Assembly: GCA_030151135.1 (NCBI GenBank)
Contig: JASLEQ010000281.1
Coordinates: 1 to 5,991 of the forward strand
Source of the DNA: Candidatus Sulfotelmatobacter sp.
GTDB taxonomy: Bacteria; Acidobacteriota; Terriglobia; Terriglobales; SbA1
Length of the DNA stretch: 5,991 bases
Reading direction: 5' to 3'
This document shows, in pieces, positions 1 to 5,991 of this stretch. The notes below the pieces were generated by a model. It searched no databases and was not told the origin of the DNA. It worked only from the letters and a program-made list of their open reading frames with translations. Both the position numbers and the translations under genes were made by a program. Numbering within the stretch: position 1 is the first letter of the stretch; every line of letters starts with the position of its first letter.

Positions 1-126
1 GAGACGTACAGGTGGGTCTTCTGCTGCGCCTGCTCTTCAGTTGCCTGATTGATTCGGACAGAACGGACACGGCGAATTCAGGTTCTCGAAGCGCTCTTCG
101 GCTCGGGAACGCGCGCCGTACGCAGG
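1..126. other. Unassigned left edge
   Basis: The upstream part of cas5c should lie here, but none of the three + frames shows clear Cas5c similarity and all carry or lie near stops. On the - strand bases about 50-130 are open and read ERFENLNSPCPFCPNQSGN before a stop; this is not recognised as a known protein. Confidence 0.35.
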
Positions 127-153
127 CTTCATGCCATGGCCCGCGCTGTCATT

Positions 154-261
154 ATCAAGTGAGCCATCGTTGTCGTCGTCGCCAGGCTCTTCTCCAAAGA
201 CGCACGGTGTGACGTAGCCCTGACAGTCCCGCGTGCCCAGGAAAATATCTTGGCGACCGAT
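154..261 (-). other. 108-bp inverted segment within cas5c
   Basis: This stretch encodes 36 Cas5c codons on the - strand, while the flanking Cas5c codons lie on the + strand. The segment starts with ATC at 154-156 and ends with GAT at 259-261, a 3-base inverted repeat, so the exact breakpoints are uncertain by a few bases. Reversing it joins LHAMARAVI to IGRQDIF on the left and GSLD to YGLTSHSF on the right, both in the same frame. Compared with the usual GGRxDIF context, about two residues seem to be missing at the left joint, so a small loss may have accompanied the inversion. Confidence 0.78.
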
Positions 262-501
262 TACGGCCTCACTTCCCATAGCTTCGACTACCCGGATGAA
301 ACGGGCGCGGGCCGGCTTGGAGCCAATTTCTGGCGGCCAAAACTCGTCAACCGCGTGCTGACATTTCTTCGGCAGGATGACATGAGCCAGATCGTGAAAA
401 AGGCTATCCGAGCCATGGAGCCTCGGGCCTTCGGGAACGAACGTGTGCGCTCCGTGGCGGCTGAAGCAACAGAACTGGCCGCCGCGACCGGACGCTCGAT
501 C

Positions 502-507
502 AGGAGG
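502..507 (+). promoter_or_regulatory. Fossil ribosome binding site of cas8c
   Basis: A perfect AGGAGG lies 7 bases before GTG at 515-517. It decides the original cas8c start: from that GTG the codons read (M)S-stop-IQ, which becomes MSWIQKLVDTYDAC when TGA is restored to TGG and one A is added to the run at 528-530. Confidence 0.7.
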
Positions 508-514
508 CGCCATT

Positions 515-942
515 GTGAGTTGAATTCAAAGCTGGTTGACACCTATGATGCTTGTCCTCAGGCGGCCGCAATTAGCACAGAATGCGCGGTCCCCTATCAG
601 CACTGTACCGCAGACCAGTTACATATGCAGTTGTATTCGGATAGGAGCTTTCACCACGCTCCTCTCGTGGAAGAGCGGGACACATCACTGTTTGTCTGAG
701 AAGATTCAGCAGCACGAGGCGGAAAGTTCCCCGCCCCCAATCCACTGACCGAACAATTGGAATACTGCGCGAAGGGGAGTGAACATTTCGGTGGTAAATC
801 TGACAAATATGACCGGTACGTCAGACAGTTGAAGTTATGGTCGGAGTCTCCCTACGGCGATCCGAAAATTGCAGGTGTTCTCAAGTACATCGTGAATGGA
901 ACGATCCTTGATGATTTACTGAATCGGAAAATTGCTGGCATT
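515..942 (+). pseudogene. cas8c: Type I-C Cas8c (Csd1) 5' remnant
   Basis: Cas8c is the large subunit of the type I-C Cascade and helps in PAM recognition and R-loop formation. Recognisable parts after frame repair are the N-terminal MSWIQKLVDTYDAC, then TEDSAAR-like EDSAARGGKFPAPNPL (700-747), EQLEYCAKGSEHFGG, the YVRQLKLW segment, PYGDPKIAGVLKYI, and NGTILDDLL near 895-924. These follow the order of the Cas8c N-terminal region (KLYETYD, then SAGR..PHPL, then the KG(S/T)xxxDLV block). Lesions seen: TGA at 521-523 (probably from TGG), one base lost from the A run at 528-530, and TGA at 697-699. Similarity ends near 942, so most of the roughly 600-residue protein is gone. Its position directly after cas5c matches the standard cas5-cas8-cas7 order. 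The likely GTGA overlap at 515-518 points to former translational coupling. Confidence 0.76.
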
Positions 943-952
943 TTCCGTTGGT

Positions 953-2316
953 GCAGGCATCTATATCTCAGGGAGTCATGACCTCTTGTCGCCAGTTCGC
1001 GTATATGCCAGACGGACGACCACCCTGTCAGTGATACGGAGCGCCGCAGAGTCCGCCGGATTCGAAGTCCACGGTTTCGCTCCCACTTCACGGGCGGCTC
1101 GTCCCCTCAATGAAGCTGGTATCGAAGCAGGAACGCTACAGGGATTCCTCAGTAAGGCGCAAGCGCTTGCCACATCGGATCAGAAGCGCTTTTACTTCAT
1201 CGACGAATCGACCCTCGCCAGCACCAATCAGGTTCGTGATTTCCTGTCCCGGTTGGGTCCAAGCGATCGAGTTCTGCTCATCGGGGACATCCGCCAGCAC
1301 CAGGGAGTGGAGGCGGGACGCCCATTTTAACAATTGCAGAATGCCGGGATGCGAACTGCCAAACTTGATGAAATCGTTCGGCAGAGAGATCCAGAGCTCA
1401 AATCCGCGGTTGAGATGTTGGCCAGGGGCGAGGTGTCGAAAGCGTTGGGAGTATTAGAGGAACAGGGTCGAATCGCTGAGATCCCGGACAAGGAAGCACG
1501 AATTCGCGAGATCACAACGAAGTATGTCGAATCTCCCGAGCGGACGCTAATCGTGTCGCCGGACAATGCATCGCGCCGGGAGATCAATCTTGCATCCGAG
1601 ATGAATTAAAGGCTCATGGGAAAGTTGTGCCCGATGATCAAAGTTTCCGTATCCTCGTGCAAAGGCAGAACATGACCGGCGCCGAACGGGCGTGGGTAGC
1701 CCACTACGAAATCAATGAGGAAGTCCGCTATTCGCGGGGCAGTAAGGCAGCGGGTATTGAAGCGGGGACTTACGTCGTGAACCAGCCTGAGAATCCACTC
1801 ACGGAAGACCGCGGCTCGGGTGATTACGTGACGTATGATCCACGGCGGCTGGCAGGCGTCAGCGCCTACCGGGAGGTGACCCATGATTTCTCTGTCAAGG
1901 ACAGGATTCACTTCTCGGCACCGGATGAGACAATCGCGTTGCCGTTCGTGATCTGGCCTCAATTGAGGTCATCTCCTCGGAAGAGCGCATTTCCGCCAGG
2001 TTCGAAAATGGGCGGCAAATCGCGTTCAATGCGTTAGAACATCGTCACTTTGACCACGGCTATGCCGTCACGAGTCACAGCGCTCAAGGCTCCCGCGGAG
2101 AGAGTGTTGGTCAACGCCGACACAAGCGTGCATCCTGACCTGCTGAATTCCAGATTCGGATACGTGTCAGTGTCTCGCGCCAGCCACGAGGCGCAAATCT
2201 TCACGGACAATGTGAACCGGTTCGGGCAACAGCTTTCATTTGAGGTAAGCAAGACTTCAGCCCTGGATCATGGCCACTCACTCTCGTTCGGGAATGAAAT
2301 CTCAATGGGACTCTAG
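953..2316 (+). pseudogene. MobF/TrwC-family relaxase, helicase domain remnant
   Basis: MobF relaxases nick plasmid oriT with an N-terminal domain and unwind DNA with a C-terminal RecD-like helicase during conjugation. Only the helicase part remains. In order: a damaged Walker A region at about 1001-1030 (VYARRTTTL instead of GYAGxGKTTTL), EVHGFAPTSRAARPL, the Walker B YFIDESTLAS, motif III LLIGDIRQHQGVEAGRPF, VRYSRGSKAAGIEAG, DYVTYDPRRLAGV, HGYAVTSHSAQG, AERVLVNAD and FGYVSVSRASHEAQIFTDN. TAG at 2314-2316 is likely the natural end. Lesions: TAA at 1328-1330 where GAA (Glu) is expected, one base lost at 1594/1595 (expected NLAIRDELKAHGK), one base lost at 1938/1939, and a -2 or +1 change at 2091-2094. 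The frame therefore runs +2, +1, +3, +1. The missing N-terminus (normally about half of a protein near 900-1000 residues) contains the catalytic tyrosine and histidine triad. The family call is firm; the start of homology near 953 is approximate. Confidence 0.88.
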
Positions 2317-2355
2317 TTCCGCCTCGCCGCCGTTCTGCGCGAGAATGATGAGATT

Positions 2356-3238
2356 ATGCGTCTCCTGTCTCGCCAGATCCTCACGTTCCTTGTCCTTGTG
2401 TTCGCATTCAGCTGCGTTCCGCACGCTGTGATGAAACACACCGGCCATATTGGCGCGGGAAACGGTCTGACCGTGCGCCTGGTGATGTGGTGTCCGGCCC
2501 TCGCCGCGTTCGTCACATGCGTCATCCATCGAATCGACCTGTCCTCGCTCGGCTGGAGTGGGCGCCCCGTGCAATACGAGTAGCTTGCATACCTGCTCCC
2601 ACTCGCTTATGCAACTCCGGTATACATCGCGTGCTGGATGGCAATTCCCGACTCTTTCGGGTTCCGCGCCTTCGCGCAAAAGATGGCCGGATCGTATGGG
2701 TTGGCGCAATGGCCTGTGCTCGGTACACTTTGCCTGGGCATTCCCGTCCTGGCACATTGAGGGTTACCGCGAGCCTCTCTACGGCTCTGGGCGAAGAGAT
2801 CGGCTGGCGTGGCTTCCTGTTGCCTCGGCTCAATGATCGTTTCGGTTGGTTTCTCGGCTGTCTGCTTAGCGGCGTGATTTGGGCCGTATGGCACTATCGG
2901 TGCTCCTCTTTGCGGACTACAACGCCGGCACTAATAAGGTGTTCGCGCTTAGCTGTTTCACGCTGATGGTCATCGGAAACGCGTTTCTGATGGGCTGGCT
3001 TCGGCTGAAATCAGGTAGCCTGTGACCCTGCGCCATGCTACACGCCAGTCACAATCTGCTTATACAGGCGATCTTCGACGGTATCACCGCTCCCGCGGGG
3101 CGCGCCCTTTACATCACTACGGAGTTCGGGATAGGGATGGTGATCACTACTGCTGTGGTCGCAGCATTCCTCTGGACTAAACGCCAAGGACTGCATTTAG
3201 GGGTTCACGGCCAACGCGAGGTTTTTGTGCAAGTTTGA
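2356..3238 (+). pseudogene. CPBP-family intramembrane metalloprotease, broken
   Basis: This membrane protein of the CPBP (CAAX protease/bacteriocin-processing, Abi) family is recognised from its three motifs: EEIGWRG near 2800-2820, the W..H motif in IWAVWHY near 2877-2897, and HASHN near 3041-3055. The N-terminal 75 residues contain hydrophobic segments (QILTFLVLVFAFS and a second around MWCPALAAFVTCV) and the common IDLSSLGW stretch. Lesions: TAG at 2581-2583 (probably from TGG), one base lost near 2748-2751, one C lost at 2897/2898 (the repaired reading is HYPVLLFADYN), and TGA at 3023-3025 (expected TGG, reading SLWPCAMLHASHN). After repair the protein would be about 290 residues, normal for the family. 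No convincing ribosome binding site is seen before ATG 2356, so the start is tentative. It follows the relaxase end by 39 bases. Confidence 0.85.
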
Positions 3239-3256
3239 ATGCTTGTCTGATCTGCA

Positions 3257-3865
3257 TCAAAGCGTCTCTGACTTGCGCAATACCCAGGTGGTCATACATC
3301 GGCTTCCCTGCACAATGGTTGTCTTGAGCGGATCGACCAGTTCCGCGTTGAGGTCGCGTGTGAGGGCCAGCAGCATTTCCTCGTCGACGAGGAACCACTC
3401 AGAGCCACCGACGCGGAATACGCCAGCGCGGATCTGCTCAAACTCCATTCCAATGCGCGACGCCACGCGGCAGAACAACATTCCACCGGGACGAAGAACG
3501 CGCCAAAGCTCGTTGAACATGGCATCGAAGTGCTCGCGGTTTCGGGCAAAGTGCAGAACCGCACTCGCGATCACTAAGTCGGCGATCGCATCGGGAAAGG
3601 GCATTTGCTCGACGGGAGCGATGCGGAAGTTTTCCGCCGGGGATGGATTACCGAAAGAACCCGCGAGCCTGCGCACGTGCTCCACGGCGTTGCTATTTGA
3701 ATCGACGGCGAACACTTCGCAACCTTCGCGTAGCAGGTAGATAAGATTCCGCCCCATCCCACAACCGGCATCGAGCACGTGCATGGCTCGCGTGATATTT
3801 CCGCGCAGAATCTGATCGAAAAGGTAGATATCGATCCGTCCGAATTGTTCTTGAAGCGTCACCAT
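3257..3865 (-). CDS. Class I SAM-dependent methyltransferase
   Basis: This is a 202-residue cytoplasmic methyltransferase of the UbiE/Methyltransf_11 type; its substrate cannot be told from the sequence. The SAM-binding motif I is VLDAGCGMGRN at residues 30-40, the acidic residue after beta-2 is Asp55 in VFAVDSN, motif II is DLVIASAVLHF (96-106), and motif III is LRPGGMLF (124-131). The frame stays open upstream to a possible TTG at 3988, but ATG at 3865 is chosen because AAAGGAG sits 6 bases before it and because MVTLQEQFGRIDIYLFDQ is a sensible N-terminus. No lesions are seen, unlike the genes on its left. It converges with the CPBP remnant, with only 18 bases between the two ends. The larger gene on its right is on the same strand, about 200 bases upstream, so cotranscription is possible but not shown. 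Confidence 0.86.
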   Translation of the reverse strand: MVTLQEQFGRIDIYLFDQILRGNITRAMHVLDAGCGMGRNLIYLLREGCEVFAVDSNSNAVEHVRRLAGSFGNPSPAENFRIAPVEQMPFPDAIADLVIASAVLHFARNREHFDAMFNELWRVLRPGGMLFCRVASRIGMEFEQIRAGVFRVGGSEWFLVDEEMLLALTRDLNAELVDPLKTTIVQGSRCMTTWVLRKSETL

Positions 3866-4064: not shown

Positions 4065-5991
4065 CTAAGGCTGCTCAGTCTGCAGATTCGCATCGGGGAC
4101 AAGCACCACATCGCATGAGTTACCCATAGAGCAACTCACGACCGCGCTGCGCAGTAGGTGGGCCTTCGATGCGGGAGGAAGCAGTTCCGAGAACTTCATC
4201 GCCATTAATGGCGGCTTGATGCTGGCTGAGAGCTTCTGCTCGCCTGACATCTGCTGTGCCTCTATGACTCCGCTGGTGCTGACCTCGAGCCGGAATGTTC
4301 CCCAGCCGCTAGCGCCCGCCGGACGCTTAATCTTGTACGTTCGTAAGTTTTGCAGTTCTTCCGCACCCTTCGACGCGGCAAGCACGCTGAACGAATTGCT
4401 GGCTGAGCCAGCGTGAGTGCGAGCAACTCCGGCATTGATCTCTTCTACTACGTTAGCGGGCGTGTTTTTATTCACCGCAAGCCTGGCAAACCGGAAGCCC
4501 GATGCAGCCTCTTCCTTTCTGCCCAGCTTCTCATACGTCTGGCCAAGATGGCAGCCTACCTCCGCAAGCAGAGATGCACGCCAGGCCGGTGACAGCCAGG
4601 CCATTGCGTCGTCATATTTCTCTTCCTGAAAGAGGATCCAGCCAAGAGTATCCCAGGACGCAATGAGCAGGTAGGCCGCAGAAAACGCTCCCTGGTTTAC
4701 CTGGTCGGTCGTAATCCCCGCGGAGCGCTCTTCAAGCTTGGCAATCGCCTTGCGGGCGGCGTCTTCGGCAACAACCAGATCACGCCCCGCCTCGCTAAGC
4801 GTATAAGCCGCGGAGTTCAGGATCTCAGGGTCATCTACTCCATCAAGCGCGCTTTTGGCAGCTGCGCTCGCTTCGTCGTATCGATGCAGCCGCACCAGCG
4901 TCGTGGCAACTTGCAGGCGGAGCTGGCGATCGTCGGGACTTTGTTGGGCCGCGGTCTCGTACGTTTTGAGGGCTCCCTGGTAGTCCTTGTCCTGCATTTG
5001 GAAATTGCCCAGGTACATTGCCATTTGTGCGTCATCAGGATGCGACTGAACGAAATTCAGCAGCAGTTTTCGTGCCGCGTCGCGCTGGTTATCGCGGGTC
5101 AGGAGATCCGCAAGATGGCCTACCGTCATCTTGTTGTCAGGGCTGACTTCGACTTCCTTGCGATAGTCCTCAATAGCGGCATGGTTGTCGCGATCGCCCG
5201 CTTCGGCAACGTATCCGTAGCTCGCCCACAGGCCTGGCTGCTTAGGATTCTTGGCTTTGACCGCGTCCAGTATCTCCCGAGCGCTCGCCCAGTCATATGC
5301 GCGCAGCTTGTCGGACAACTCCGACATCAGCTCCAGAGGAGACTTGTCGGCCAGCGAGCCTGATCCGGCTTTGCCGGCGTCTCCAGAGGGCTCTGCCGAT
5401 ACAATCGCGACCAGGTCCTTTTTGCTTTCAGACTCCGGTTGCGCTTTGCTTGGACCAGCAGCCTCAGAACTGACGACTGTGATCGGTTTTGAGAGCGGCA
5501 GCAATTGGATCCAGGGTTCGCCGTTCAGGCTGATGTCCTTCGTGAAAGCCTGGTAAGCCTTCCAGTCTCCCTTATCCACCTTCTTCTTCAGCACCACGAT
5601 GGTGCGTTGGGCTACGATCTCTCCGTTATCAAAATGATAGGTTTTATCGAAGGTCGCAAATGGCGTTTTCACGTGGATCGGATCGGGCAGATTCGTACGA
5701 TAGCCTTCCGGCAATTTGACGCGCGAGATGGCGGTCAGCGTGCGCGGCGCACCCAAATCTATGTCTTCGTTGGGCGCGGTATCCTTACTGTCTAAAGTGG
5801 TAAATTCCAGAGCCGGAAACAGCGGCACGATGCGCATCGAGTCCCAATCTCCGAAGGGATGGCGGGAATAGTCATAGGACATGATCATTGGCTGAGAGGT
5901 ATCGTCGGCATTGCGAAATTCGGTATTGCTCGGGGTTCCACCAAAGCCCGATGCGGAAGAGATGTACTGTGCAGCTTGGTCGCGCTCGGCT
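4065..5991 (-). CDS. DUF3857-like/TPR repeat protein, 5' end outside window
   Basis: The frame is open to the right edge, so 641 residues are visible and the N-terminus is missing; the ATG at 5888 is internal rather than the start. Numbering from the edge, residues 1-165 resemble the region after a transglutaminase core in DUF3857 proteins of Acidobacteriota: LPEGYRTNLPDPIHVKTPFA, FDKTYHFDNGEIVAQRT and DWKAYQAFTKDI. Residues about 170-220 form a Ser/Ala/Lys/Glu-rich linker. About 220-515 is an array of TPR-like helical pairs, for example MYLGNFQMQDKDYQGALKTY and LGQTYEKLGRKEEAASGF. About 535-641 is a beta-rich tail with a Cys pair (SCSMGNSC). The TPRs imply protein-protein binding, probably in the envelope or periplasm, but no signal peptide can be checked because the start is absent. 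The exact role is unknown. The sequence has no internal stops. Confidence 0.82.
   Translation of the reverse strand, partial: AERDQAAQYISSASGFGGTPSNTEFRNADDTSQPMIMSYDYSRHPFGDWDSMRIVPLFPALEFTTLDSKDTAPNEDIDLGAPRTLTAISRVKLPEGYRTNLPDPIHVKTPFATFDKTYHFDNGEIVAQRTIVVLKKKVDKGDWKAYQAFTKDISLNGEPWIQLLPLSKPITVVSSEAAGPSKAQPESESKKDLVAIVSAEPSGDAGKAGSGSLADKSPLELMSELSDKLRAYDWASAREILDAVKAKNPKQPGLWASYGYVAEAGDRDNHAAIEDYRKEVEVSPDNKMTVGHLADLLTRDNQRDAARKLLLNFVQSHPDDAQMAMYLGNFQMQDKDYQGALKTYETAAQQSPDDRQLRLQVATTLVRLHRYDEASAAAKSALDGVDDPEILNSAAYTLSEAGRDLVVAEDAARKAIAKLEERSAGITTDQVNQGAFSAAYLLIASWDTLGWILFQEEKYDDAMAWLSPAWRASLLAEVGCHLGQTYEKLGRKEEAASGFRFARLAVNKNTPANVVEEINAGVARTHAGSASNSFSVLAASKGAEELQNLRTYKIKRPAGASGWGTFRLEVSTSGVIEAQQMSGEQKLSASIKPPLMAMKFSELLPPASKAHLLRSAVVSCSMGNSCDVVLVPDANLQTEQP

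Follow-up and report, generated by a model that had tools for sequence, protein, structure and literature searches.

Pieces of cas3 and cas5c at the left end of the contig

The left part of contig JASLEQ010000281.1 from Candidatus Sulfotelmatobacter sp. (assembly GCA_030151135.1) carries broken pieces of a type I-C operon of clustered regularly interspaced short palindromic repeats (CRISPR) and their cas genes, among them a segment of cas5c lying in inverted orientation. In an earlier note, this segment had been described as a clean, in-frame inversion of 36 codons (154-261) in an otherwise continuous cas5c gene. Coordinates refer to the complete stretch analyzed (the window, 5,991 nt), and those of L001 to positions in the contig bearing this reference operon.

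With the Cas5c-like protein obtained by flipping the segment as query, 2685 relatives were found at E ≤1e-5, of which the best 120 were examined. The best protein relative of the flipped sequence, P0001 (79% identity, 88% query coverage), gave access to 28 cas5c loci, and the best two of these, L001 and L002, both from metagenome-assembled genomes of Acidobacteria, served as reference operons. In L001, cas3 (4929-7424), cas5c (to 8232) and cas8c (8229-10139) pass the respective NCBIfam cut-offs (Cas3 core and HD, Cas5d, Csd1) and are followed by cas7, cas4, cas1, cas2, the leader and the CRISPR repeats, in that order, with the names of cas7, cas4, cas1 and cas2 assigned by reading the translations. 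Each of the seven L001 Cas proteins has a match in L002, and their order is conserved; the cas4 match contains one stop. Parent sequences were assigned by BLASTN of window positions 1-900 against L001 and L002, protein matches by comparing the L001 proteins with the window, and breakpoints by a base-by-base junction scan against both operons.

The comparison with L001 resolves the left end of the window into two cas3 remnants, an inverted piece of cas5c and a forward piece of cas5c (Table 1), and BLASTN against L002 gives the same four-part pattern. At the protein level, the first cas3 remnant corresponds to residues 200-224 of L001 Cas3 (80% identity, E 4e-8) and the second to residues 383-412 (90% identity), ending directly before FDEVQ. 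The letters HAMA encoded at 130-141, previously read as a Cas5c motif, belong to this second remnant and are part of the Cas3 sequence FGSGTRAVRRLHAMARAVIV, after which FDEVQTLP comes next in L001.

Overall, the cas5c parts show 77-82% DNA identity to the type I-C operons of L001 and L002, with the inverted piece reaching 82% against the minus strand of L002 over 150-259. On the minus strand, 154-258 codes for 35 residues corresponding to positions 185-219 of the L001 Cas5c open reading frame (ORF) at 89% identity (E 6e-17), while the plus strand at 241-492 contains its residues 213-296 (79% identity, E 5e-38). A one-base alignment gap at about 490 shifts the frame near the end of the forward part, and the DNA match starting at 258 extends from cas5c into cas8c of L001. 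The minus strand translates into the Cas5c-like block IGRQDIFLGTRDCQGYVTPCVFGE, the plus strand into DYGLTSHSFDYPDETG. Each of the two separately matches the solved structures 4f3m (BH0337) and 9w6c (CRISPR RNA processing protein), both of which we take to be Cas5c. Given the E-values, chance, which the earlier note had called unlikely, is ruled out for the Cas5c blocks on both strands, and the strand flip within the cas5c sequence is real. Against the NCBIfam Cas5c profile TIGR01876, the two pieces score 20.4 and 14.7 bits and the flipped sequence 45.4 bits, all three values being below the curated cut-off of 85 bits. The part of the L001 Cas5c ORF before residue 185 has no match anywhere in the window at E ≤0.01.

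The left flank of the inverted segment

Stretches of 30, 54 and 86 nt ending at position 153 were aligned with cas3 and with the DNA expected upstream in cas5c, and the scores were compared with those of 1000 single-base shuffles each. The score against the upstream cas5c of L001 was reached by 143, 218 and 315 shuffles, respectively, and that against L002 by 631, 350 and 659, whereas none of the 1000 shuffles reached the cas3 score in any of the six tests. Hence, the expected cas5c DNA fits the left flank no better than shuffled sequence, cas3 clearly does, and the flank is not cas5c. In line with this, TIGR01876 aligns with the flipped protein only from residue 11 on, past 'LHAMARAVII'. By these alignments, the stretch 67-156 is cas3.

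Accordingly, the proposed in-frame micro-inversion inside cas5c is correct in assigning cas5c first to the minus strand and then to the plus strand, which the alignments place at 154-258 and from 258 onwards, respectively, but not in assigning 127-153 to cas5c, and the right edge of the inverted piece had been set a few bases too far. Flipping the segment does produce an open frame; its product, however, is a cas3-cas5c fusion in which no cas5c gene is restored, and the flip-and-align check suggested earlier yields the rise in profile score given above but nothing to the left of the joint. Because the left flank fits cas3 and not cas5c, and because the profile match starts later, we ascribe both the length of 36 codons and the uninterrupted frame across the left joint to chance.

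Joints and missing DNA

At joint A, between the two cas3 remnants, alignment offsets indicate that about 485 bp of cas3 are missing relative to L001. Joint B, where cas3 meets inverted cas5c, shares the bases ATC when judged by L002 and only TC when judged by L001, as the ATC at 154-156 also stands in the cas3 gene of L002, where L001 has GTC. Together with GAT, this ATC had been regarded as an inverted repeat at the ends of the segment; it may instead represent junction microhomology. Depending on the assignment of ambiguous bases (15 combinations of breakpoints at joints B and C), the inverted piece of cas5c is 100-106 bp long, and where it meets the forward piece the outcome ranges from a loss of 2 bp to a repeat of 4 bp. 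The stretch missing between cas3 and cas5c, comprising the rest of cas3 and the 5' part of cas5c, amounts to 1703-1709 bp in L001 coordinates. From the alignments, then, this is a compound junction of cas3, 100-106 bp of inverted cas5c and forward cas5c, with about 1.7 kb missing. In a simple microinversion, the same gene would be colinear on both sides and nothing would be lost, but here the left flank is cas3 and adjoining DNA is gone.

Table 1. Features and joints in the left part of the window, with positions in the window, strand and supporting match or remark.
Feature	Position	Strand	Match or remark
First cas3 remnant	2-78	+	L001 5525-5601, 86% DNA identity
Joint A (cas3 to cas3)	73-78 (versus L001), 76 (versus L002)		Junction scan
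Second cas3 remnant	67-156	+	68-156 to L001 6074-6164, 93% DNA identity
Joint B (cas3 to inverted cas5c)	153 (versus L001), 153-157 (versus L002)		Junction scan
Inverted cas5c piece	154-259	-	L001 7974-7869, 81% DNA identity, E 5e-22
Joint C (inverted to forward cas5c)	257-259 (versus both L001 and L002)		Shares CG
Forward cas5c 3' part	258-517	+	DNA match 258-576 to L001 7971-8290, 81%, E 1e-75
cas8c (csd1) 5' remnant	514-942	+	In-frame stop
Probable type I-C CRISPR leader remnant	936-1013	+	Between cas8c stub and mobF
mobF relaxase remnant	1013-2268	+	Stops and one frame change; directly after leader remnant

Arrangement of cas5c in relatives

In all 28 fetched loci, which had been found with a colinear query, cas5c is colinear, with a single forward tblastn match spanning both breakpoints; the uninverted form that was to be looked for in related genomes is thus present in each of them. 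Among the best 120 of the 2685 relatives, a regular expression finds both Cas5c motifs in forward order in 114. Inspected by eye, five of the remaining six are colinear with variant letters, and the sixth, P0012, is short and without the upstream motif. This Cas5c relative of 97 aa has no Cas5c similarity upstream of ASLDYGL, near the position of joint C, and may represent a further disrupted cas5c, from a related lineage.

Samples of 398 genomes of the family (query 1-1050; 12 genomes with any match) and 397 genomes of the order (query 94-321; 10 with any match), which are overlapping, even samples of larger groups with two candidates scored per genome, list no match crossing a joint; the listed matches break off at the joints, give or take a few bases, or lie on one side. 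An exact 20-mer over joint C was found in no viral contig searched. The colinearity of the 28 loci together with the lack of joint-crossing matches in these relatives makes it most likely that the forward arrangement is ancestral.

Remnants in the remainder of the window

Downstream of cas5c, the cas8c remnant shows 27% protein identity to residues 6-134 of L001 Cas8c at 529-933 (E 3e-8, one stop within the match) and 58% identity to L003 at 700-942; the Pfam match to Cas_Csd1 is weak (E 0.0024) and below the cut-off. The adjoining stretch 936-1047 is 70% identical to L001 13085-13196, which lies between cas2 and the first repeat, and has a similar match in L002 directly ahead of its repeats. 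The CRISPR repeat of L001 is absent from the window, its best match of 20/33 lying inside the range of 18-22 obtained with 20 shuffles, and tblastn of L001 cas7, cas4, cas1 and cas2 against the window gave no match below E 0.4, with none below E 1.9 for cas2.

The mobF remnant shows 55 and 37% identity to residues 469-665 and 664-896, respectively, of MobF from Granulicella tundricola pACIX903; residues 1-468 (pACIX903 numbering) are missing. It includes an AAA_30 domain (E 2e-25), and the alignment starts at a lysine that presumably belongs to the Walker A motif, with R in the window. A plasmid DNA search with 1-3400 returned only mobF matches, in three records, on Granulicella and Acidisarcina plasmids. 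At 2487-2966, one ORF matches part of a CAAX-protease (Rce1-like) profile (E 2e-10), and the neighboring frames, read by eye, suggest that this gene is broken. Beyond the degenerate region follow an unbroken methyltransferase ORF of 243 aa on the opposite strand and an unbroken TPR ORF of 641 aa (4065-5990, minus strand), open at the window end. The TPR protein is related to DUF3857-domain proteins of Acidobacteriaceae, and named organisms among its 58 relatives include Alloacidobacterium dinghuense (52%), Terracidiphilus and Telmatobacter. Together with the mobF matches on Granulicella and Acidisarcina plasmids, these relatives suggest that the operon probably stems from an acidobacterium. 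Rfam gave no match in the window at gathering cut-offs.

Taken as a remnant of a type I-C locus, the window holds cas3, cas5c and cas8c (csd1) in order, each partial and broken; with these three truncated and cas7, cas4, cas1 and cas2 not found in the window, it does not hold a functional one. Judged by sequence, the region from 1 to about 3200 looks like the ruin of a CRISPR-Cas operon plus a plasmid-type relaxase gene, and the operon is probably non-functional. The unbroken methyltransferase and TPR ORFs argue against poor sequence quality.

Origin of the rearrangement

The arrangement is likely a real scar left, for the most part, by one deletion-inversion event in a type I-C CRISPR-Cas operon that has degenerated. 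The parent sequences of the pieces, their order and orientation, the breakpoint intervals and the sizes are read directly from the piecewise matches, which place the four segments and both joints against two separate operons; from these, we infer the mechanism and the single-event origin. Decay of several genes nearby supports the same reading, with the loss of about 485 bp in cas3, the stop in cas8c and the leader lying beside a truncated mobF. All in all, the arrangement resembles a genome-decay scar rather than a switch or a clean flip in a working gene.

In the presumed ancestor, the order would have been cas3, cas5c, cas8c, cas7, cas4, cas1, cas2, leader and array, as in L001. A 3' end at cas3, either replicating or resected, may have annealed via ATC to the opposite strand of cas5c, whereupon about 104 nt would have been copied backwards from cas5c before a switch back via CG, in the manner of microhomology template switching. 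Microhomology end joining that retained one small reversed fragment would be equivalent. Most likely, loss of about 1.7 kb and reversal of the adjoining 100-106 bp of cas5c would thus be one event, which is favored because deletion and inversion share an endpoint to within the few bases lost or repeated at joint C. Template switching or fold-back repair, which the earlier note had put forward, remains in the favored class of mechanisms, but its setting is a deletion-inversion with cas3 as the left flank. It was the HAMA motif, together with a length divisible by three, that made this cas3-cas5c deletion-inversion resemble a precise in-frame flip.

Several observations weigh against a single template-switching event in a decaying operon. 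A template-switch rearrangement would be expected to show microhomology at every joint and joints that arose at the same time. The 2-3 bases shared at joint B and the 2 at joint C are weak evidence when taken alone, the more so as joint B shares only TC with L001 as reference. The rearranged form was seen in one sequence only among those searched. Moreover, the cas5c differences lie mostly at third codon positions, and more so in the inverted part, where positions 1/2/3 account for 3, 3 and 14 differences from L001 and 2, 1 and 16 from L002 (of 34 each), compared to 8, 8 and 23 from L001 and 10, 9 and 31 from L002 (about 75 each) in the forward part. This excess indicates that most of the divergence arose before or without decay. 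On the limited basis of about 330 bases, most of the cas5c divergence probably accumulated under constraint, and decay would be recent relative to the split from L001 and L002.

The main rival holds that the joints are artificial, produced as chimeras in multiple displacement amplification (MDA) with phi29 or introduced when a metagenome or single-cell contig was misassembled. MDA chimeras are described in PMC1855051 as mostly inverted, with intervening deletions, and formed at 2-21 complementary bases; this description fits each of the joints, and among the sequences searched the joints occur in this one only. For both joints to be artificial, however, two switches lying some 104 bp from each other would both have to prevail in the consensus, which would be unusual. 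The stops and frame changes found in cas8c and mobF resemble ordinary decay, and the two flanking ORFs (methyltransferase and TPR) are unbroken; we regard an artefact as unlikely. Alternatively, two separate events could have occurred: first an inversion, either of about 1.8 kb reaching from ATC in cas3 to GAT in cas5c or of a small stretch in cas5c, and then a deletion of the remainder. The ATC in the cas3 gene of L002 and the GAT in cas5c indeed form a 3-bp inverted pair at fitting sites. But with two independent events the second, a deletion, would have had to halt by coincidence within a few bases of the edge left by the first, and this sequence of events appears improbable as well. As to a clean in-frame inversion of 108 bp in an otherwise continuous cas5c, flipping does unite the two Cas5c blocks with a higher score than either piece alone; yet with cas3 as the left flank, no Cas5c before residue 185 in the window and a profile match stopping at the joint, this model has become practically untenable. 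Separately, an inverton was considered and rejected, as at most 3 and 2 bases are shared at the joints and no repeat pair of at least 12 is present at the edges; the 10 ORFs scanned gave no match to a recombinase family.

Returning to the deletion-inversion, we see little probability that Cas3 activity of the operon itself, or a conflict with a conjugative plasmid as it integrated, drove the collapse of the locus, including the joining of leader and mobF; if so, the region would be the fossil of a type I-C locus that destroyed itself through autoimmunity. What the case offers is a well-resolved example of a CRISPR-Cas operon dismantled by compound rearrangement, with operon-bearing relatives at about 80% identity. 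The kind of rearrangement is already known, and this case alone leaves views of CRISPR or of inversion mechanisms unchanged.

Comparison with known systems

As in degenerate or partial type I-C loci, the remnants of cas3, cas5c and cas8c and the leader-like stretch lie in operon order; in contrast to these, one piece is reversed here, and the window contains no cas7, cas4, cas1, cas2 or L001-like repeat. Bacterial invertons are site-specific, phase-variable inversions and likewise present a segment in inverted orientation, whereas here an inverted repeat of recombinase-site length is absent, adjacent DNA is lost, genes are broken and no recombinase match was found among the 10 ORFs.

Deletion-inversion junctions are ascribed to template switching or to microhomology-mediated break-induced replication (MMBIR), and fork stalling and template switching (FoSTeS) also belongs to the template-switch class. 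Such deletion-inversions likewise show a short inverted piece between microhomologies with an adjoining deletion; the present case differs in having only 2-3 shared bases and in being a single instance in a bacterial pseudogene, where the mechanism would be of the same class. A further likeness exists to the microinversions between human and chimpanzee, for which PMC8755829 proposes MMBIR and reports very short inverted repeats at the edges, with 3-nt repeats in 8 cases. These, too, are short inverted segments with a very short edge repeat, but they measure 17-33 nt and are mostly pure, whereas in the window about 100 nt are inverted and about 1.7 kb are missing on one side.
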